A program made the position numbers and the translations under genes. DNA of 64,000 nt from NCBI GenBank assembly GCA_905233135.1, contig CAJOCQ010000006.1:36672-100671 (forward strand). Reading direction: 5' to 3'. This DNA is from an uncultured Selenomonadaceae bacterium. Its GTDB lineage: Bacteria > Bacillota > Negativicutes > Selenomonadales > Selenomonadaceae. Below the pieces are notes generated by a model that saw only the letters and a list, made by a program, of their open reading frames with translations, ran no database searches and was not told the origin of the DNA. Positions 5,694 to 63,900 of this stretch are shown here, piece by piece (within the stretch, counting starts at the first letter, position 1; each line of letters opens with the position of its first letter).

Positions 5694-8003
5694 TTGAAAT
5701 TGTACATAGCCGAAAAGCCGTCAATGGCGCGTGAAATTGCCGCCGTTTTAAAAAATCCTAAGCGCGGCAACGGCTTTATTCAAACTGAAAACGGCGTTGT
5801 AACTTGGCTTGTAGGACACGTTTTGCGGCAAGTTGAGCCCGAAGGTTACGACGCTAAATATAAATCGTGGCGCACAGAAGATTTGCCGATTGTTCCCAAA
5901 ATTTGGAAGTTGGAAGTTGACCCGAAAACCGCCGCTCAATTCAACGTTGTAAAAAATTTGATTCAACGCGCGGACGAAATTATTCACGCGGGCGACCCAG
6001 ACAGAGAAGGGCAACTTTTGGTTGACGAAGTTTTAGATTTTGTCGGCAACAAAAAGCCCGTCAAAAGAATCTTGCTGAACGCTCTCGACGAAACAAGCAT
6101 TAAACGCGCCAATGAAAACCTGCGCGATAACGCCGAATTTTTTAACTTGAAACAATCCGCGCTTGCACGCGCCCGCGCTGATTGGCTGATTGGTATGAAT
6201 CTTTCACGCGCTTACACGCTAGCCGCGCGTCGCGCAGGGCGTGATGAAGTTTTCCCGATTGGCAGAGTTAAGACTCCGACGCTTGCACTTGTTGTGCGCC
6301 GCGAAAGGGAAATTGTAAATTTCAAGCCTAAAGATTTTTTTAATATTTTTGTACAGTTTCAGCACGTCAACGGCACTTTCGTTGCTAAATGGAAACCGAA
6401 AAGCGATAATCTGAAATTTTTCGACAGCGAAGGCAGATTGATTAACAAAGATTTTGCTGAAACTTGCCTTAAAAATTTTTCAACGCCGCCGCTTGACGGT
6501 AAAATTTATTCCTGCAAAACTTCAGAAAAAAAAGAATCTCAACCTTTGCCGTTTTCGCTGTCAACTTTGCAAATTGCAGCAGGAAAACTTTTCAGCTACA
6601 CGCCCCAACAAGTTCTTGACGCCGCGCAGTCTTTGTACGAAAAAAAATTAACAACTTATCCGCGCTCGGATTGTCAATTCTTGCCTACAACTCAATTTTC
6701 TGACGCTAAAAAAATTCTCTTCAACTTGCAAAAAACTTCAGACGAAAATTTGAAAAATCTTGCAGATAACGCCGACCCGAAAATTAAAAGCCGCGCCTGG
6801 AACAATTCAAAAATTTCCGCGCACCACGCAATTATCCCGACAACAAAACCCGTTACAGGCGGCTTGAATATCGTTGAAATGAATATTTATAAACTCATTG
6901 CCAAAAATTACGCCGTGCAATTTTATCCCGTGCACGTGTACGACGAAACAGTTATTGAAGTTTCCTACAAGAAAGAAAAATTTTCTGCGCGTGGCAAAAT
7001 CATTAAAGAAATTGGTTGGCGCAAATTTTACGTCGCCGCAAAAACTAAATCCGATGACGAAGTTGCTCAAACTTTGCCCAAAGTTGCAAAGGGCGATTCT
7101 GTTACTTATAAAAATTCCGAATTAAAAAAAAGTACTACCGAGCCGCCGCCGCGCTTTACCGCCTCAAGCCTTGTTCAAGGTATGAAAGATATTCATAAAT
7201 ACGTCAAAAATCCCGAAGTTCAACAACAGCTCAAGGACGTTTACGGGATTGGTACGGAGGCAACGCGCGCGCAGATTATCGACGATTTAATTACACGCGG
7301 CTTTTTGTCATTCAAAACTAAAAAAACTTTGCAACCTACCGAAAAAGCTTTTATGTTGATTGACTTGTTGCCTGACGAAATAACTTTTCCCGACGCAACC
7401 GCAATTTGGGAAGATAAACTTCATTCAATGAGCGAAGGCGAAGGCACGCTCGAAGATTTTTTGGCTGGGCAAGTGCAATTTACAAAAACACTTTGCAAAA
7501 AAGCTGTTACTGCGAAGATTAAACCGCCTGAAGGCGTTACAATTTGCCCGCGCTGTAAAAGCGGCGTTATGGTTAAACGTAACGGCAAGAACGGCGAATT
7601 TTGGGGTTGCAGTAATTACCCAACTTGCAAAATGACTTGCGAAGATAAAAACGGCAAGCCCGATTTTGAATCACGAAAATTAATTCAACCTGCAAAGAAC
7701 GCTGTACATTGCCCGCGCTGTAAAAGCGGCGTTATGGTCAAACGCAACGGCAAAAATGGCGAATTTTGGAGTTGCAGCAATTATCCTGATTGCAAAATGA
7801 CTTGCGAAGATAAAAACGGCGATCCCGATTTTGAATCACGAAAATTAATTCAACCTGCAAAGGACGCTGTACATTGCCCGCGCTGTAAAAGCGGCGTTAT
7901 GGTTAAACGTAACGGCAAAAACGGCGAATTTTGGGGTTGCAGTAATTATCCTAATTGCAGAATGACTTGTGATGATTTAAAGGAATTAGGGAATAGGGGT
8001 TAG
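5694..8003 (+). CDS. topB: DNA topoisomerase III-type (type IA) with three C-terminal zinc-finger modules
   Basis: MKLYIAEKPSMAREIAAVL, HAGDPDREGQLLVDE, IGRVKTPTLALVVRRE; C-terminal CPRCKSGVMVKRNGKNGEFWGCSNYPTC x3. Confidence 0.93.
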   Translation: MKLYIAEKPSMAREIAAVLKNPKRGNGFIQTENGVVTWLVGHVLRQVEPEGYDAKYKSWRTEDLPIVPKIWKLEVDPKTAAQFNVVKNLIQRADEIIHAGDPDREGQLLVDEVLDFVGNKKPVKRILLNALDETSIKRANENLRDNAEFFNLKQSALARARADWLIGMNLSRAYTLAARRAGRDEVFPIGRVKTPTLALVVRREREIVNFKPKDFFNIFVQFQHVNGTFVAKWKPKSDNLKFFDSEGRLINKDFAETCLKNFSTPPLDGKIYSCKTSEKKESQPLPFSLSTLQIAAGKLFSYTPQQVLDAAQSLYEKKLTTYPRSDCQFLPTTQFSDAKKILFNLQKTSDENLKNLADNADPKIKSRAWNNSKISAHHAIIPTTKPVTGGLNIVEMNIYKLIAKNYAVQFYPVHVYDETVIEVSYKKEKFSARGKIIKEIGWRKFYVAAKTKSDDEVAQTLPKVAKGDSVTYKNSELKKSTTEPPPRFTASSLVQGMKDIHKYVKNPEVQQQLKDVYGIGTEATRAQIIDDLITRGFLSFKTKKTLQPTEKAFMLIDLLPDEITFPDATAIWEDKLHSMSEGEGTLEDFLAGQVQFTKTLCKKAVTAKIKPPEGVTICPRCKSGVMVKRNGKNGEFWGCSNYPTCKMTCEDKNGKPDFESRKLIQPAKNAVHCPRCKSGVMVKRNGKNGEFWSCSNYPDCKMTCEDKNGDPDFESRKLIQPAKDAVHCPRCKSGVMVKRNGKNGEFWGCSNYPNCRMTCDDLKELGNRG
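7545..7971 (+). repeat. Three tandem ~165-bp zinc-finger-encoding repeats
   Basis: tgcccgcgctgtaaaagcggcgttatgg at 7545, 7710 and 7875; near-identical at nucleotide level. Confidence 0.9.
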
Positions 8004-8086
8004 GGGTTAGGGATTAGAGATTAGGGAAAAATTCCTAAAACCTGATACCTGACACCTAAAAAACTGACTGAAAGGAAGTTTTTTCA

Positions 8087-9436: not shown

Positions 9437-9664
9437 ATTAGGTTGCAGGTGTCAGGTTTTAGGTGTCAGGTGTTAGGAAAAAGAAAGAAAGTACATTTAA
9501 ATATTTAAATAGAAAAATTTAAACTTAAAAAATTTTAAAATTTTTTAAAGAACCCCCGCCAATCCCTTAAACTTGACGATATATTGAATTTTTGGTATAA
9601 ATATCTGTCAATGTACAGTAAATTATTCTCAAATGTTTAAATAAAAAATTTTTTCGGAGGCATA

Positions 9665-12600
9665 ATGATGATTAAGGAAAACTCCTTGAATTTCAATTTA
9701 CAAATTTTCGCTTTGCCTGATTCTGCAACGCTCGGCGCAGATAACGGCGTTGTAAATGTCAGCGGCAGTGATGAAACTGAAACTTATTCTTTCAGCAAAA
9801 GCATTTCAAACCGCCCTTCTTACGCCGCGTCAATCACTTCAAGCGAAATTGAAAGCGCAATTACTACCATTTCAAGCGGCTCTTGGATCAGGGGCGGCGG
9901 TGAAAGTTCCGATAACCTTTCGCTCGACGGCATTGCAGATATTAAAAATTTTGAAAGCGGCGACGCTGTCCAACTTTCTGCCAACGGCAACACTTTAAAT
10001 TTAAGCGGCGTTTCAGGCTCCGTTGAACTCGAAAATATTAATGAAAATTCCCTCGCGCAGGAAATTAACGGCGCAAATATCGACGCTACTTTTGCAGATA
10101 ACGCCGCCGTTACTTTGACTGCCGAAAATCAAAATTCTGTCGAAATTGAAGCAGACGGCAACGTTACTTTAAACAGTATCGACGAAAATCAAACGTGGAA
10201 TGTTGCCGCAAATAACGCTGTAAATTTCGGCGGCGTTGCAATTTCTGCCGGCGAAATTATTTCTGCCGTAAAAAGCAAGAAAGGCGAATTTTTAAGTGTT
10301 AATTCTTCCAACGATGCAACTTTTGAAATTACCGCAGAAAACGCCGCAGTTGACAACGTGGAAATTAACGGCGCGGTTCTTGGCGGTATGGACGCACTCA
10401 ACGGCAGTAACATTTCAACTTCAGGCAAAGATATTTCTGCCGCAAATTTGACCGCAGGCAAAGTTTCTGTTGACGATTGGAATTTAAATTTAAATGACGG
10501 CGATACTTTTTCTTATAACACTTCCAAAGGCAACCTTTCAATTTCTTCAGATTACGATAACGCCGTTACAATCGACGGCGCGGCTGATAAAAATTTGACG
10601 CTCAATCAAGGCTCCAATGATATTTCCGCAAAAGTCAACGGCGCAAATATTTCTTTGCAAAATGACGCGGAAGGCGTTGAAGTTAAACTCGAAGACGGCG
10701 GCATTTCCGCAATTTCAAATGTTGACGAAGGCGCGGCTGTTACCGTAAGCGGCGACGATTCTTTCAAAATTAATTCAAAATATACCGTAACAACCAAAAA
10801 AGATTTCGTTGCAACTGTCGAAAGTAACGGCTTGAATGTTACGGCGGGCAACGGCGATAATATCAACGTCGGCGGCGGTGTAACTTCATTTGAACTTGCA
10901 AGCGGCAAAGCTACTTTGAACGGCGAAGCTATTACTTTAAGTACAACCGATAACGCAAATTTCAAAATGAAAAATTCTGACCTTACAGCAGTTAATTTGA
11001 CTGTCGGCGATACGCTTACAACTGCTACCGATAAAATTTTCAAAGTTACTTATGACGCCTCCAACGTTGACGCAAATACCGATTATGTTTTGACTGTCAA
11101 CGATACAAGCATTTCTGTTAAGGGCAGCGATTTTACGGGCGATACTGCAACGCTCGAATTTAATTCAAACGGCACAATTAAAATTGACGGCATTACTACA
11201 GATACAACCATTACTGCAACAAAAGGCACTTACAGAGTTAATGGTAAATCTGCCGTGACTGTCAACGAAGATACAGGCTACATTACAATTAACGAATACG
11301 GCGACGTTTCAGCAGAAAACGCAAGCGTTGTTGATCAAAGAGCCGCGCGTACAGGTATAGTTGACGCCGCCGCCGCTAAAGAAAATTCTATTCCCGCAGT
11401 TGACGTTTATTCAAATATTGGTACAGGTGTTCCTTCAGTTATTGCAAATTCGCAAGTTGCACATTACGATAACGCAAGCGATACAACGCCTACTGCAACT
11501 TCTGTTGAAGGCGGAATTAATATTTCTGTCAACACCGAAAAACAATTAGATTCAACTACAACGCTCGGCGATACGGACGATTTGCGCCACGTTAAATTGG
11601 AATCTTCGCTTGCTGAAGATATTATTATTGCAGAACCCGAAGGCGACAGCATTTATTCTTCAATTATCGACGTCAGCGGCAGTACAAAAAATACTATGGT
11701 TGCAGTCGGTACGGGCAATGGAACTTCTTTTGTTCGTCATTCGATTGTCGGCAGCGGCAATGACAAGACAAGTTATATTATTCTTGGCGAAAATCTGCGC
11801 GCGGCAAGTTCAGTTCAAGCGGGCGACGGCAATAATTATATTTACAATGCAGGCGCAAAATCTACACTCAACGGCGGCGCGGGCAATGATTCAATTCTTG
11901 CCGGCAAAAACGATATTGTAACGGGCGGCGCGGGCAAAGATTATTTCTTTGATTCAAACGACGCGGCGAACAGCGGCGGCTACACCGTTACAGATTACAG
12001 CATTTCTGACGGCGATGTTATTGTTGCCACCAATCTTTCCAAAGACCAAACAATTTCTTCAAATATGTTTGACTTTAAAGAAGGCGCAGTTGCAATTTCG
12101 GGCGGCAACCAAATTACTTTGAGCGGCGGCGAAAATCAAGCTCTCTTCACTGACGCTTCAATGGAACATAAATATAAATTAATGTGGGCTGACAAATACG
12201 GCGGCGATTTAAATGCTGACGGCGTTTTTGCAACTGACAGCGGCGTTGTTATGGTTGCAGATTATAATAACCGCGCAGACACTATTACAGGCACTGCAAG
12301 AGTTGACAGAATTTTTGCGGGCGGTAATGACGTTGTAGAAGGCGGCGGCGGCAAAGACAGAATCTTTTTGACTGCCGCAAAAGGCAACGAACGCGGCGCG
12401 GCTGTTAATATGTCCGATAATACAAAAGACTCAAAAGAAATTTATAATTGGAGCTACGGCTTCGATAAAGCCAACAATAAAATTTTTACAGATATTAATT
12501 CGCTGACTTTCACTGTTACCGAAAAAGGCAACCTTTACGTTGCAAATTCTGAATCCGCGCTTGTCCTTATGAATGAAGACGGCGCAAGTACCGATAAATT

Positions 12601-13831
12601 TAATTTGCTTGCCGGTACAGATAAAAATAATTTGTACAAGGTTACCGTTGTAAACAATAAAGCAAACGGCGTTATAGAAAATAACGATGATTGCGCAGAT
12701 GGTTATTATGCAACAGGTGACCGCGCAACGCTTACTTTCGGCGAAGGCGTAACAAAAATTATAGCTTTTGTTCAGGACAGCAAAAATACAGCCGGAAATT
12801 TCCGCTATTTAGCTTTTAACAATAACAGTAAATCTACATTAATTGGCAACGATGGCGAAGAGTACGTAACTTTGGGCGGCGCGGCGTCAAAATATGCAAC
12901 CAAGACTGTTTCACTCGGCGGCGGCAACGATTTTATTTATTCTGGCGGCGCAGATACTTCAACTGCAGGGCATAAAATTTTATTCGGCGCGGGCGACGGC
13001 AACGATTCTATTTCCAATTTCGGCTACTATCAAGGCAAAAAAGCTGATTTCCTCAAAAATTCTTCGGACGTTATTTCAATCAGCGGTTGGAATTTTAAAA
13101 GCAACAGCACGGGCACAAGTTCAATTAATGTTACCGCAAATAAAATTTCTGCCGCTATTGATTCTGAAACAAGTATAACCCTTATTGACGAAGTAAGCAC
13201 TGATAATATGTTGAGAATACAACTTGACGGCACGGAACATATTGCAAAATTCGGCTTGTCGGATAACAAACAAGGCAACGAATTTATCTACAACAGCGAA
13301 GTTGATTTTTATTACGGCGATGTTACGCACAAAAACGATAAATTGATTGTCGACAGTTCCACTTCGACGGCTGAAATTTATATTGACGGCTCGCAGGGCA
13401 AAAGATATTACGGCATTAAAGATGTTGACGCTACAGGCGCAAAAGGGCGCGTCATTGTTTACGGAAATTATTTGGATAACGTTTTGACTTCGGGCGGACA
13501 AAATGCAAGCCTTTGGGGCGGCGAAGACGCAAGCAACGATACGCTTATTGGCAGTGACGCCCGCGATACTTTCATTTTCTCGCAAAACGGCGGCGAAGAT
13601 ACTGTTCAAAACTTCGATAAAAATATTGATAAAATCTTAATGAAGGATATTACTTTTGACGATTTGGCGGCGGCTAATTTCAGCGGCGACAATTCAATTT
13701 CAATCGAACTTACCGACGGCAGCAATTTAACTGTTGAAAGTTCAAGCAATTTGGAAGGTGCGCGTTTCCAATTTGCAGATAAAAGTTATTACGCAAGAAA
13801 AGCTGATGACGGCTCCATTTCTTGGAAATAA
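9665..13831 (+). CDS. Large RTX/hemolysin-type calcium-binding repeat protein
   Basis: N-terminal NSLNFNLQIFALPD; NGGAGNDSILAGKNDIVTGGAGKDYFFD, AGGNDVVEGGGGKDRIF and LTSGGQNASLWGGEDASNDTLIGSDARDTFIFSQNGGEDTVQNFD repeats; RBS ttcggaggcat. Confidence 0.8.
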   Translation: MMIKENSLNFNLQIFALPDSATLGADNGVVNVSGSDETETYSFSKSISNRPSYAASITSSEIESAITTISSGSWIRGGGESSDNLSLDGIADIKNFESGDAVQLSANGNTLNLSGVSGSVELENINENSLAQEINGANIDATFADNAAVTLTAENQNSVEIEADGNVTLNSIDENQTWNVAANNAVNFGGVAISAGEIISAVKSKKGEFLSVNSSNDATFEITAENAAVDNVEINGAVLGGMDALNGSNISTSGKDISAANLTAGKVSVDDWNLNLNDGDTFSYNTSKGNLSISSDYDNAVTIDGAADKNLTLNQGSNDISAKVNGANISLQNDAEGVEVKLEDGGISAISNVDEGAAVTVSGDDSFKINSKYTVTTKKDFVATVESNGLNVTAGNGDNINVGGGVTSFELASGKATLNGEAITLSTTDNANFKMKNSDLTAVNLTVGDTLTTATDKIFKVTYDASNVDANTDYVLTVNDTSISVKGSDFTGDTATLEFNSNGTIKIDGITTDTTITATKGTYRVNGKSAVTVNEDTGYITINEYGDVSAENASVVDQRAARTGIVDAAAAKENSIPAVDVYSNIGTGVPSVIANSQVAHYDNASDTTPTATSVEGGINISVNTEKQLDSTTTLGDTDDLRHVKLESSLAEDIIIAEPEGDSIYSSIIDVSGSTKNTMVAVGTGNGTSFVRHSIVGSGNDKTSYIILGENLRAASSVQAGDGNNYIYNAGAKSTLNGGAGNDSILAGKNDIVTGGAGKDYFFDSNDAANSGGYTVTDYSISDGDVIVATNLSKDQTISSNMFDFKEGAVAISGGNQITLSGGENQALFTDASMEHKYKLMWADKYGGDLNADGVFATDSGVVMVADYNNRADTITGTARVDRIFAGGNDVVEGGGGKDRIFLTAAKGNERGAAVNMSDNTKDSKEIYNWSYGFDKANNKIFTDINSLTFTVTEKGNLYVANSESALVLMNEDGASTDKFNLLAGTDKNNLYKVTVVNNKANGVIENNDDCADGYYATGDRATLTFGEGVTKIIAFVQDSKNTAGNFRYLAFNNNSKSTLIGNDGEEYVTLGGAASKYATKTVSLGGGNDFIYSGGADTSTAGHKILFGAGDGNDSISNFGYYQGKKADFLKNSSDVISISGWNFKSNSTGTSSINVTANKISAAIDSETSITLIDEVSTDNMLRIQLDGTEHIAKFGLSDNKQGNEFIYNSEVDFYYGDVTHKNDKLIVDSSTSTAEIYIDGSQGKRYYGIKDVDATGAKGRVIVYGNYLDNVLTSGGQNASLWGGEDASNDTLIGSDARDTFIFSQNGGEDTVQNFDKNIDKILMKDITFDDLAAANFSGDNSISIELTDGSNLTVESSSNLEGARFQFADKSYYARKADDGSISWK

Positions 13832-13908
13832 AATTTTAGTGCAAAAAAATTTATCGGGGATTCTCAAATTTTGGGAGTCCTCGATTTTTTTTATTTTCCA
13901 AATAATTT

Positions 13909-14185
13909 TTTTATGTTCTTTCTTTTTCCAAAGCAAAAAAGAAAGAACCAAAGAAAAGTGCTTTCTTTCGCCCGTCAGGGCCGCTCGGTTCAAGTACGCT
14001 CTTAGTCAGTGAGCCCCTTTTGGGGGCGCAAACTTTTTCCTACGCTCGTAAAAAAGGTCAAGCTGCGGCTTTAGTGACGGGCGTATTACCACCCTTAACG
14101 GGTTGCAGTTTTAATTCAGCAAACTAGAAATTGCCGCGCGTCCTGCGCGAGTGGCGGCTCACATCACGTTCGCCGCCTTTTTATT
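13909..14185 (+). repeat. Dispersed structured repeat, copy A
   Basis: ttctttctttttccaaagcaaaaaagaaagaaccaaagaaaagtgcttt...cgcccgtcagggccgctcgg...tgacgggcg...gccgcgcgtcctgcgcga; shared with copies at 37562, 49266, 52777, 63720. Confidence 0.9.
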
Positions 14186-14198
14186 CTGTAACGCAAAA

Positions 14199-14224
14199 AA
14201 GCCTTCCTTTTGGGAAGGCTTCAA
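14199..14224 (-). terminator. Terminator downstream of tRNA-Ser(GCT)
   Basis: - strand gccttcccaaaaggaaggc followed by tttttt. Confidence 0.7.
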
Positions 14225-16645: not shown

Positions 16646-16669
16646 ACATTGTTGGTAAATTACACAAAT

Positions 16670-16910
16670 AAAAAAAGCGGCGAACGTGATGTGAGCCGCC
16701 ACCACTCGCGCAGGATGCGCGGCAATTTCTATTTTCTACGCTTGAAAGTGCAACCTAAAAAAGCACGCGCTTTCTAGGGCACGGCACACAGGACGTGCGC
16801 CGCCCGCAATAAGTCGCAGGATGCGACTTCTGCGGGGCGAGAGTTTTTCTTTCTTTGCCAGGCGTTTCTTTCTTTTTACAAAAAGAAAGAAATGCCGACT
16901 TGTTAAAAAA
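16670..16910 (-). repeat. Variant of the dispersed structured repeat (opposite orientation)
   Basis: gcggcgaacgtgatgtgagccgcc matches the 3' module of copy A in reverse; three AGGAY-loop hairpins; ends with the ttctttc/gaaagaa hairpin. Confidence 0.8.
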
Positions 16911-16962
16911 AAAATTTAAATTTGTAAATACAATCCAGAAAACAGAAAGGCAGTTGTAAAAT

Positions 16963-25710: not shown

Positions 25711-25834
25711 TAAAATTCCTCCGCAATTTTTTCTGAAATTATATAACAGGTTTTAATTTGATTCAACGCGCTTTTTGCAGTAAAATTTTTTTAAACTGTT
25801 TTTCATTTATTTAGAAATTGTTTTATTCTTAAAT

Positions 25835-25990
25835 GTATTTTCTTTTTCCAAAGCAAAAAAGAAAGTACCAAAGAAAATTGCTTTTAACAGTAAGCTTAGC
25901 AGGAGACCCGCTGAAATCGCGTCACGTGGAGCAATGCTCTTTCTCATTGCATTGCATACGCGGGAAAGCCGCCCACACTTGGGCGGCAAG
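25835..25990 (+). repeat. Variant of the dispersed structured repeat
   Basis: ttctttttccaaagcaaaaaagaaagtaccaaagaaaa leader with a different 3' body. Confidence 0.6.
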
Positions 25991-33059: not shown

Positions 33060-33534
33060 AATTATTATCGGCAAAATCGGCAAGGCGCGCGGGCTTGACG
33101 GCACTTTGAAAATTATCCCGCTTACAGATTTTGAAGGGCGTTTTGATAACCTTGAAAAAATCGAAGTCGGCGGCAAAATGTTTCAAGTCGAAAAAGTTCA
33201 ACATATCGGCGGCGAAATTTTTATTAAGTTTGAAAATATCGACAGCCGCGAAGTTGCAAAAACTTTGACGAATAAATTTTTAAAAGTTCCACGCGCAGAA
33301 GCCGCGCCGCTTGAGGACGGCGAATTTTATACCTTCGATATTATCGGCTGCGAAGTTTTCGACGGCGAAAAAATTATCGGCAAGGTTGAAAATGTTCTCA
33401 AGACCGGCAGTAACGATGTCTTTCAAGTTTTGGGCGAAACTGAAATTTTAATTCCCGCGCTGAAAAGCGTTATAAAAAAAATCGACATTGCAAATAAAAA
33501 AATCTACCTTGCGGCAGATTTTTTTAGGGAATAG
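33025..33534 (+). CDS. rimM: Ribosome maturation factor RimM
   Basis: IIIGKIGKARGLDGTLKIIPLTDF...FYTFDIIGCEVFDGEKIIGKVENVLKTGSNDVFQVLGETEILIPALKSVIKKID; true start may be slightly downstream. Confidence 0.93.
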   Translation: MRMTKLLQSEDKIIIGKIGKARGLDGTLKIIPLTDFEGRFDNLEKIEVGGKMFQVEKVQHIGGEIFIKFENIDSREVAKTLTNKFLKVPRAEAAPLEDGEFYTFDIIGCEVFDGEKIIGKVENVLKTGSNDVFQVLGETEILIPALKSVIKKIDIANKKIYLAADFFRE

Positions 33535-33572
33535 GGGCTAGGGATTAGTGAAAATTTCCCTAGTCTTTATTT

Positions 33573-34834: not shown

Positions 34835-34965
34835 GGTGCAACACGGTGCGCACGGACGCGCACCGCCGCGAATTTACCGCCGTGATGGCGGTACTCGCGG
34901 TTCAAAGTTTTTCTTTCTTTGCTTAAGCGTTTCTTTCTTTTTTTCAAAAAGAAAGAAATGCTGTA
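34835..34965 (-). repeat. Variant of the dispersed structured repeat
   Basis: cggtgcgcacggacgcgcaccg and taccgccgtgatggcggta hairpins, then tttctttctttttttcaaaaagaaagaaa leader hairpin. Confidence 0.65.
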
Positions 34966-37525: not shown

Positions 37526-37561
37526 GCCTTTTAAGTTTTTTTAGCAAATTTTTTTATCTTA

Positions 37562-37800
37562 AATGTTCTTTCTTTTTCCAAAGCAAAAAAGAAAGAACCA
37601 AAGAAAAGTGCTTTTACCGCCCGTCAGGGCCGCTCGGGTTCTGTACGCACTTAGTAACAGATGGCCCCCCTTTGGGGCCTCAACTTTTTCCTACGCATCA
37701 GCATTACCGCAAGCTGCGGCTTTAGTGACGGGCGGAGATTACATTAGCTGGTTGCAATTTTCAGCGTAAAAAATAGCAAGTGCCGCGCGTCCTGCGCGAA
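37562..37800 (+). repeat. Dispersed structured repeat, copy B
   Basis: Same leader hairpin, ccgcccgtca...tgacgggcgg, ggccccccttt-ggggcc, cgcgcgtcctgcgcg. Confidence 0.9.
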
Positions 37801-49204: not shown

Positions 49205-49265
49205 GATTAAACACCTCTTTTTCAGGGCTCAAGGTTTTTAATTTATTTTAAATTTTAATTTTAAA

Positions 49266-49540
49266 ATGTTCTTTCTTTTTTCCAAAGCAAAAAAAGAAAG
49301 AACCAAAGAAAAAGTGCTTTTATCGCCCGTCAGGCCGCTCGGTTTCAATAACGCTCGTAGTCAGTGAGCCCCTTTTGGGGGCGCAAACTTTTTCCTACGC
49401 TTCTAAAAAATAGTAAGCTGCGGCTGGGAGACGGGCGTATTACCAGCATTAACGAGTTGCACTTTCAGGCTTGTAAAGTAGCAAGTGCCGCGCATCCTGC
49501 GCGACTTTTTACGGGGCGCACGTCCTGTGCGCCCCTCCTT
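49266..49540 (+). repeat. Dispersed structured repeat, copy C
   Basis: Same leader hairpin and body; ends with cgcgcATCCTgcgcg and ggggcgcacGTCCTgtgcgcccc hairpins. Confidence 0.9.
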
Positions 49541-52723: not shown

Positions 52724-52776
52724 TTTTTGTTTTTGCTCTTAGGATATTAAAAAATTTTTTATATTTCATTTAGTTT

Positions 52777-53055
52777 AAATGTTCTTTCTTTTTTCCAAAG
52801 CAAAAAAAGAAAGAACCAAAGAAAAAGTGCTTTTTATCGCCCGTCAGGGCCGCTCGGTTTCCAGTACGCACTTAGTAACAGACGGCCCCCTTGGGGGCCT
52901 CTACTTTTTTCTACGCTCGTAAAAAAGGTCAAGCTGCGGCTGAGAGACGGGCGAATATTACAACCGTTAACAGGTTGCAGTTTTTAGCTTATTAGTCAGA
53001 ATTTGCCGCGCGTCCTGCGCGAGGGTACGAGGCGCACGTCCTGTGCGCCTCTCTT
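52777..53055 (+). repeat. Dispersed structured repeat, copy D
   Basis: Same leader hairpin and body; cgcgcGTCCTgcgcg and gaggcgcacGTCCTgtgcgcctc hairpins. Confidence 0.9.
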
Positions 53056-53067
53056 TATTTTTTCTAA

Positions 53068-57141: not shown

Positions 57142-57341
57142 AGCATTTGCCGTAAACCTGCCAAATCGCCAAATTTTAGATTTTTTGCAAGGGGTATACA
57201 TTTATACTAAAAAGAGTTTGAAGGGGGCGTAGCGGCGAAATTTGACGCCTTGCGCGGTTTCTTTGAAGGCGTGCTCTCTTAATCGATTTTAAAACTTCCA
57301 AAGAAAATTTTAACCCCTAAAACCTGACACCTAAAACCTAA

Positions 57342-58682
57342 TCAGCCTGCCGCCAAAGGTTGCCCCGAAATTGCAACAAGTTTTTTCTTTGTAACTTCGT
57401 AAGTATCAACTTCAAAAATTCCCTGACAAAGGAAACCGTTAATAGCGTCAATTTTTGCAATAGCGGCATCAATTCGTTTGCTGGAGCCTTTGACGTACGC
57501 GCCGATATGAATTAAATCTTCAGCGTCCCTGTAAGTTGCCATAAGCGCGCGCATATTCTGCGCGGCTTGCAAATGTTCGGGCGTTACAACTTCATTCATT
57601 ACGCGGCTTACACTTCCCAAAACGTCAATAGCGGGAAAATGATTTTGCGCGGCAATGTTCCTGTCTAAAACTATGTGCCCGTCAAGAATCGAGCGCACGG
57701 CGTCAGCAATAGGTTCGTTCATATCGTCGCCGTCAACCAAAACTGTATAAATTCCCGTGATAGAACCTGTATCGCTTGTGCCTGCGCGTTCAAGAAGGCG
57801 CGGTAAAAGTGCAAAGACTGAAGGCGTATAGCCGCGCGTTGCAGGCGGTTCGCCAATCGTTAAACCAACTTCACGTTGCGCCATTGCAAAGCGCGTTACA
57901 GAATCCATCATTAAAATAACTTTATGCCCGTTGTCCCGAAAATATTCCGCAATAGCCGTTGCAGTCATTGCGCCCTTGATTCTGACAAGCGCGGGCTGGT
58001 CTGAAGTTGCAACAACTACAACCGCGCGCTTTAAGCCTTCTTCGCCCAAATCACGTTCGATAAAATCTCGCACTTCGCGCCCGCGTTCGCCGACAAGCGC
58101 AATAACTGAAATATCAGCTTCAGTGTTACGCGCAATCATTGAAAGGAGCGTAGATTTTCCAACGCCCGAGCCCGCCATAATTCCAATTCTTTGCCCGCTG
58201 CCCATTGTAATTAAACCGTCAACTGCGCGAACGCCGACATATAAATTTTCGTGAATGCGCGGGCGCGTCAAAGGCGGCGGTGGCGGTGCTTGCAAGGGGT
58301 ATTCAGTTTTGGAACTGATTGGCGGCAAGCCGTCCATTGGATTCCCCAAGCCGTCAAGTACGCGCCCCAAAAGTTCTTCGCCGACTCTTACTCGCAATGT
58401 TGTTTGCGCGGCTACAACTTCGCAGCCGGGACCAACGCCTTGCATTTCGCCGACGGGCATTAACATAACTTTTCCTTCACGAAAACCGACAACTTCAGCG
58501 GGAATTGGTTTAGCATTCGGCGTTTTGGGGTAAATGTAGCAAAGTTCGCCGACGCTTACGGCGGGGCCGCTCGTTTCAATTACCAAGCCGACAACTTGCA
58601 CAACTTTTCCCGTTAGTTTTATAGTTTTAGTGTCGCCGATGACTTCGGTTAATTTTTTTAAGCTTATATCGTTTTTTATCAT
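57342..58682 (-). CDS. fliI: Flagellum-specific ATP synthase FliI
   Basis: GQRIGIMAGSGVGKSTLLSMIARNTEADISVIALVGERGREVRDFIERDLG; start MIKNDISLKKLTEVI at 58682. Confidence 0.96.
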   Translation of the reverse strand: MIKNDISLKKLTEVIGDTKTIKLTGKVVQVVGLVIETSGPAVSVGELCYIYPKTPNAKPIPAEVVGFREGKVMLMPVGEMQGVGPGCEVVAAQTTLRVRVGEELLGRVLDGLGNPMDGLPPISSKTEYPLQAPPPPPLTRPRIHENLYVGVRAVDGLITMGSGQRIGIMAGSGVGKSTLLSMIARNTEADISVIALVGERGREVRDFIERDLGEEGLKRAVVVVATSDQPALVRIKGAMTATAIAEYFRDNGHKVILMMDSVTRFAMAQREVGLTIGEPPATRGYTPSVFALLPRLLERAGTSDTGSITGIYTVLVDGDDMNEPIADAVRSILDGHIVLDRNIAAQNHFPAIDVLGSVSRVMNEVVTPEHLQAAQNMRALMATYRDAEDLIHIGAYVKGSSKRIDAAIAKIDAINGFLCQGIFEVDTYEVTKKKLVAISGQPLAAG

Positions 58683-63615: not shown

Positions 63616-63719
63616 CGCCTTTTGAACTTTTTTGTTTATTCGTGAAAAGTTGCAGTTATTCCTTTTTTGAATACGTGTTTTATTCTGCGGCGGTTTTTTA
63701 TTTAATTTTTAAAATTTTA

Positions 63720-63900
63720 TATGTTCTTTCTTTTTCCAAAGCAAAAAAGAAAGAACCAAAGAAAAGTGCTTTTTTCCCGCCCGTCAGGGCCGCTCGGTTC
63801 AAGTACGCACTTAGTGACAGGATGCCCCCTTTGGGGCGCAAACTTTTTCCGACGCGCCAAGATTACCGCAAGCTGCGGCTTTAGTGACGGGCGGGGTTTT
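63720..63900 (+). repeat. Dispersed structured repeat, copy E
   Basis: Same leader hairpin; cccgcccgtca...tgacgggcggg outer stem; gccccctttggggc. Confidence 0.9.

Follow-up and report, generated by a model that had tools for sequence, protein, structure and literature searches.

Paired GGA-loop hairpins on a dispersed intergenic repeat of a rumen Selenomonadaceae bacterium are predicted CsrA sites

The region upstream of gltX in the 64,000-nucleotide stretch of DNA analysed here (the window), which lies on contig C6 of the genome of a rumen bacterium of Selenomonadaceae (2.45 Mb, 35 contigs, 86% complete), contains several hairpins with an AGGAY loop and raises the question whether these are binding sites of the regulator CsrA or units of another kind of palindromic repeat. 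How CsrA is controlled outside Gammaproteobacteria is an open question, and sponge RNAs are mostly unknown there. Our analysis shows that the hairpins belong to a high-copy intergenic repeat dispersed over the genome. Their assignment to CsrA is strongly supported at the sequence level: they are probably RNA-level CsrA sites, which occur in pairs on a transposon-like repeat and together would form a distributed CsrA sink. Thus, the genome may hold a spread-out CsrA sponge in place of a single sponge RNA.

The window contains about ten full or partial copies of the repeat (Table 1). The hairpins of the initial annotation, namely three on the plus strand upstream of gltX, reverse units in four further copies, and a related hexaloop hairpin, were all found where it had placed them. 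Genome-wide, the hairpin core GCGCRTCCTGCGC occurs at 89 sites and the core GCACRTCCTGTGC at 36, and the element at 13905-14200 of the window, used as a query, gave at least 40 matches. The repeat has fixed ends and two length types, a short one of about 105 nucleotides (nt) and a long one, about 270 nt, in which a middle module is added. The order of parts on the GGA strand is hairpin 1, hairpin 2, the middle module (in the long type), and an A/T-rich palindrome (TTTCTTTGGTTCTTTCTTTT...AAAAGAAAGAAC), with one to three GGA hairpins per unit. In many copies, the position of hairpin 1 is occupied by a terminator-like hairpin, GGCGGCGAACGTGATGTGAGCCGCC (13988-14190 and 16664-16705 of the window), which exhibits a compensatory AC/GT to GC/GC change and GA mismatches flanking a GTGAT loop.

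The loops of these hairpins follow a strict rule. Counts were made on 405 kb of DNA from this genome, mostly retrieved around the repeat sites; its noncoding portion has 130 GGA hairpins, every one of which has a C-G closing pair. Among 110 pentaloops, 107 are of the C[AGGAY]G form (AGGAC in 78, AGGAT in 29) and the remaining ones are AGGAG (2) and CGGAT (1), while the 20 hexaloops are all of the C[ANGGAN]G form (ACGGAC in 12, ACGGAT, AAGGAC, and AAGGAT in two each, AGGGAT and AAGGAA in one each). At the equivalent position of homologous copies the loop varies between AGGAC, ACGGAC, AAGGAA/AAGGAY, AGGAG, and CGGAT, with GGA kept throughout. In CsrB the repeated unit is CAGGA(U/A/C)G, and the hexaloop contacted by RsmE is ANGGAN (PMC7652899); the rule described for CsrA sites is CANGGANG (PMC4894983). 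The hairpins of the repeat have the corresponding features, that is, GGA in the apical loop, a preceding A, and the C-G closing pair. A census of own-genome stems that disregarded the loop (minimum stem length 7 bp, minimum GC 50%) found GGA loops in 75/93 intergenic and 4/15 coding cases, in a sample that is enriched by choice because the loci beyond the window were retrieved for containing the repeat. It shows that non-GGA loops are rare at such intergenic stems.

The stems covary, as had been proposed from the window alone. In the alignment of hairpin 2 with its outer stem, 94.6% of cells are paired and 28 cells are changed on both sides, compared with 9.5 in shuffles; the covariation score is 0.411 vs. 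0.121 for shuffled alignments, and slid versions fail. Folded as RNA, two elements of the window exceed every one of 200 shuffles in predicted stability (z of -4.6 for the copy at 16664..16915 and -3.5 for the other). The GGA sites are also paired with each other: in 36 of 44 cases neighbouring GGAs are 25-33 nt apart. The median spacing of 28 nt falls within the range of 10-63 nt over which CsrA bridges two sites (PMC7652899).

The genome encodes a single csrA, adjoining fliW, the presence of which the initial annotation had proposed to check, and the R44 region of its product is conserved in comparison with the solved CsrA/RsmE structures. In 94 hairpin clusters, with genes called by a simple codon-usage caller, the GGA strand is codirectional with both flanking genes in 52, as in the copy between the DAK2-domain gene and gltX, and opposed to both in 16 (binomial p=1.4e-5). 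Hairpin 1 often starts 2-40 nt past a stop codon, and the next start codon is mostly more than 200 nt away; blocking of a Shine-Dalgarno sequence is therefore not an obvious mode of action. The transcribed GGA strand would usually be a 3' untranslated region (UTR) or an intercistronic part of the mRNA of the upstream gene. Such a route is plausible, given that in Xanthomonas an mRNA 3' UTR gives rise to RsmU, an RNA that binds RsmA (PMC7694677); RsmU itself comes from a single locus and forms no repeat family. A CsrA dimer would span the loops of two hairpins, and more than 100 sites per genome could jointly act as a distributed sink, coupling the activity of CsrA to transcription as a whole, in a clade with csrA beside fliW. 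The repeats may also alter the stability of the host mRNAs. Transcription of the repeats, CsrA binding and titration, the resulting effect, and mobility of the element are what we infer from these features.

The recurrence of the hairpins in other genomes concerns their arrangement and not the element as a whole, which is species-specific and absent in 24 genus relatives. Genus relatives and Lysobacteraceae have, on stems of unrelated sequence, the same layout of GGA hairpin 1, GGA hairpin 2, and a CTTTGG-TTACTTTCTTT palindrome, and the hairpin pair is also common to Desulfosporosinus and some Treponema. The pattern GGCSRYCANGGAYGRYSGCC, which describes C-closed ANGGAY hexaloops on semi-palindromic stems, matches 33/66 genus genomes (the five richest have 204, 126, 73, 65, and 61 sites), with zero matches of its reversed control in all 66. 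In the 22 copies examined, the arms are all perfectly complementary and the loops are ATGGAT, ACGGAT, AAGGAT, ATGGAC, or ACGGAC; in most examples a second GGA hairpin with a different stem comes next, followed by a palindrome of the same kind. Among the listed GTDB r220 matches to the hairpin GGCGCACAGGACGTGCGCC, Lysobacteraceae and Selenomonadaceae are frequent, and Desulfosporosinus, Treponema, and Parahaliea also occur; one Lysobacter genome has 26 copies of its core. In the 130 nt downstream of GGCGCACAGGACGTGCGCC, a second hairpin has its GGA on that same strand in 27 cases and on the opposite one (read as TCC) in a single case, although several examples from Selenomonadaceae (TTTTTTC[GAGGAC]GAAAAAA) are weak. 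A palindrome, CTTTGGTTACTTTCTTTTG...CAAAAGAAAGTAAC, lies downstream of GGA hairpins in several lineages (L199-L271, L369-L378).

The csrA gene is present in 12/12 checked genomes with repeated or paired hairpins; Phocaeicola and Streptomyces, both without csrA, have single chance matches to the GGCGCACAGGACGTGCGCC core. In genus stretches with csrA, 4/11 stems have GGA loops vs. 2/43 in csrA-minus stretches (Fisher p 0.012; the numbers are small). It is possible, though we hold it only tentatively, that mobile-like interspersed repeats with paired CsrA sites make genomes of several phyla distributed CsrA sponges, the activity of the regulator being set by amplification and transcription of the repeat. 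If true, the placement of CsrA sites by the hundred in untranslated regions would add a layer of control that has gone unrecognised, one class of interspersed repeats in bacteria would have a function, and the TwoAYGGAY RNA motif would have a ready explanation.

Several observations weigh against the assignment of the hairpins to CsrA. Foreign loci lack the orientation bias (codirectional with both genes in 15, opposed to both in 13), and Lysobacteraceae DNA sampled at random in 20 kb pieces shows no GGA excess. Such hairpins are also carried by G005 and G048, two incomplete genomes of the genus in which no csrA was detected. Stem mismatches, compared as G-U vs. A-C to reveal the functional strand, give the GGA strand no preference as RNA. 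In a minority of the homologous hairpins the loop is GTGAY and lacks GGA, e.g., AAATCGC[GTGAC]GCGATTT and ACCGCC[GTGAT]GGCGGT (G000 loci such as C7:73167, C12:29670, and C14:1439, and the 34844 region of the window). Finally, a T-rich tail follows the hairpin on the opposite strand in 59/130 cases, compared with 10/130 on the GGA strand, and some copies may therefore terminate opposite-strand transcripts.

The best of the other explanations, although an unlikely one, is a selfish, non-autonomous repeat similar to miniature inverted-repeat transposable elements, with CsrA-like loops that are inherited or serve the element alone. The fixed ends, the two length types, and the amplification in one species only, with no full element in the relatives, agree with it; it leaves unexplained the retention of CANGGANG on unrelated stems in several phyla and the orientation bias in the host genome. 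Such an origin is compatible with CsrA binding. It is still less probable that the hairpins are terminators acting on the RTCCT strand, with a loop conserved merely by descent. The T-rich tails on that strand would fit, but 52 of the 94 clusters have no neighbouring gene in that direction, no such tails are present in the Lysobacter copies inspected, and across taxa the stems differ while the loops retain GGA. Nor do the hairpins resemble intrinsic terminators of the upstream genes, as the 10/130 T-runs on the GGA strand indicate. The main alternative of the initial annotation, repetitive extragenic palindromes or bacterial interspersed mosaic elements that a Y1 (RAYT or IS200-type) transposase recognises in the form of DNA hairpins and spreads, agrees with the high copy number, intergenic position, palindromic nature, and fixed ends of the repeat, but is very improbable, since the 86% complete genome gives no match to PF01797 while five control genomes do, no GTAG foot was seen by eye beside the listed hairpins, and neither the CsrA loop rule nor the tolerance of an inserted N is expected of such elements.

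The repeat shares features with two kinds of known CsrA-related RNAs. Gardner and Eldai are said to be the authors of a 2014 proposal on TwoAYGGAY and Bacillaceae-1. In that proposal, TwoAYGGAY (RF01731) and the reverse complement of Bacillaceae-1 were suggested to be CsrA binders (PMC4333381). TwoAYGGAY, like the repeat, has two adjacent GGA-hexaloop hairpins; its outer stem is different, and the repeat has a palindrome module and a copy number that rises into the hundreds in a genome. A search of Rfam with the window and the elements gave no family above the cut-off. The threshold of RF01731 was passed only by a Desulfosporosinus copy (L205; 43.8 vs. 43 bits); TwoAYGGAY is also the best match of a genus copy (L371), at 27.2 bits, below the cut-off, and the window copies do not match it. 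The reverse complement of Bacillaceae-1 (RF01690) matches a window element at 19.8 bits, below its cut-off of 35.

The second kind are the sponge RNAs CsrB/CsrC and RsmX/Y/Z, which share with the repeat their repeated CAGGAYG/ANGGAN hairpins; Rfam clan CL00106 unites PrrB_RsmZ and TwoAYGGAY. In contrast to the repeat, with one to three sites per dispersed unit in a genome outside Gammaproteobacteria, these are single small RNA genes with many sites, and Rfam finds none of them in the window. Accounting for the hairpins by CsrA, as initially suggested, thus holds with respect to the loops, their pairing and spacing, and the csrA-fliW pair, but not in the form of a single CsrB-like sponge RNA, the sites being placed on a dispersed high-copy repeat. 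The hairpins would work like those of TwoAYGGAY and CsrB, yet by the curated threshold they are not members of RF01731. Among the papers searched, nothing was found on this palindrome sequence or on interspersed repeats bearing CsrA sites. The TAACTGA repeats of Beggiatoaceae were rejected as relatives, as the paper describing them states that they lack GGA sites.

Table 1. Repeat copies and their parts in the window
Feature	Position	Strand	Remarks
Repeat copy	16664..16915	+	Between DAK2-domain gene (stop 16645) and gltX (start about 16963)
Hairpin CGCGC[AGGAT]GCGCG	16707..16721	+	
Hairpin GGCaCAC[AGGAC]GTGcGCC	16783..16801	+	One A/C mismatch
Hairpin AAGTCGC[AGGAT]GCGACTT	16811..16829	+	Enclosed by outer stem CCCGCA/TGCGGG
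A/T-rich palindrome module (TTTCTTTCTTTTT...AAAAAGAAAGAAA)	16861..16896	+	Distal end of repeat
Repeat copy	13912..14190	-	GGA strand minus; hairpin 14135-14149; opposite-strand terminator-like hairpin GGCGGCTCACATCACGTTCGCCGCC
Partial or degenerate copy	25799..25990	-	Palindrome module, no intact GGA hairpin
Hairpin CGGTGCGC[ACGGAC]GCGCACCG	34844..34865	+	Hexaloop ANGGAN; copy opposed to both neighbouring genes
Repeat copy	37529..37800	-	Between chorismate synthase and shikimate kinase genes; hairpin 37784-37798; GGA strand is gene strand
Repeat copy	49234..49540	-	GGA hairpins 49489-49503 and 49513-49535; 7 nt past upstream stop codon
Repeat copy	52747..53060	-	GGA hairpins 53007-53021 and 53029-53051; 16 nt past gyrB stop
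Partial copy	63687..63900	-	Palindrome and middle module, no GGA hairpin

Other repeats are also present in the window. A reading frame of 1388 aa (9665-13831) has RTX-looking repeats rich in glycine and aspartate and gives no Pfam match at 1e-5. Three tandem repeats of 165 nt (7544-8038) are located at the 3' end of a 769-aa reading frame (5694-8003). Degenerate, TTAGGG/TTAGGT-like short intergenic repeats occur at 7986-8027, 9452-9479, 33524-33551, and 57313-57342, and also adjoin some copies of the hairpin-bearing repeat.
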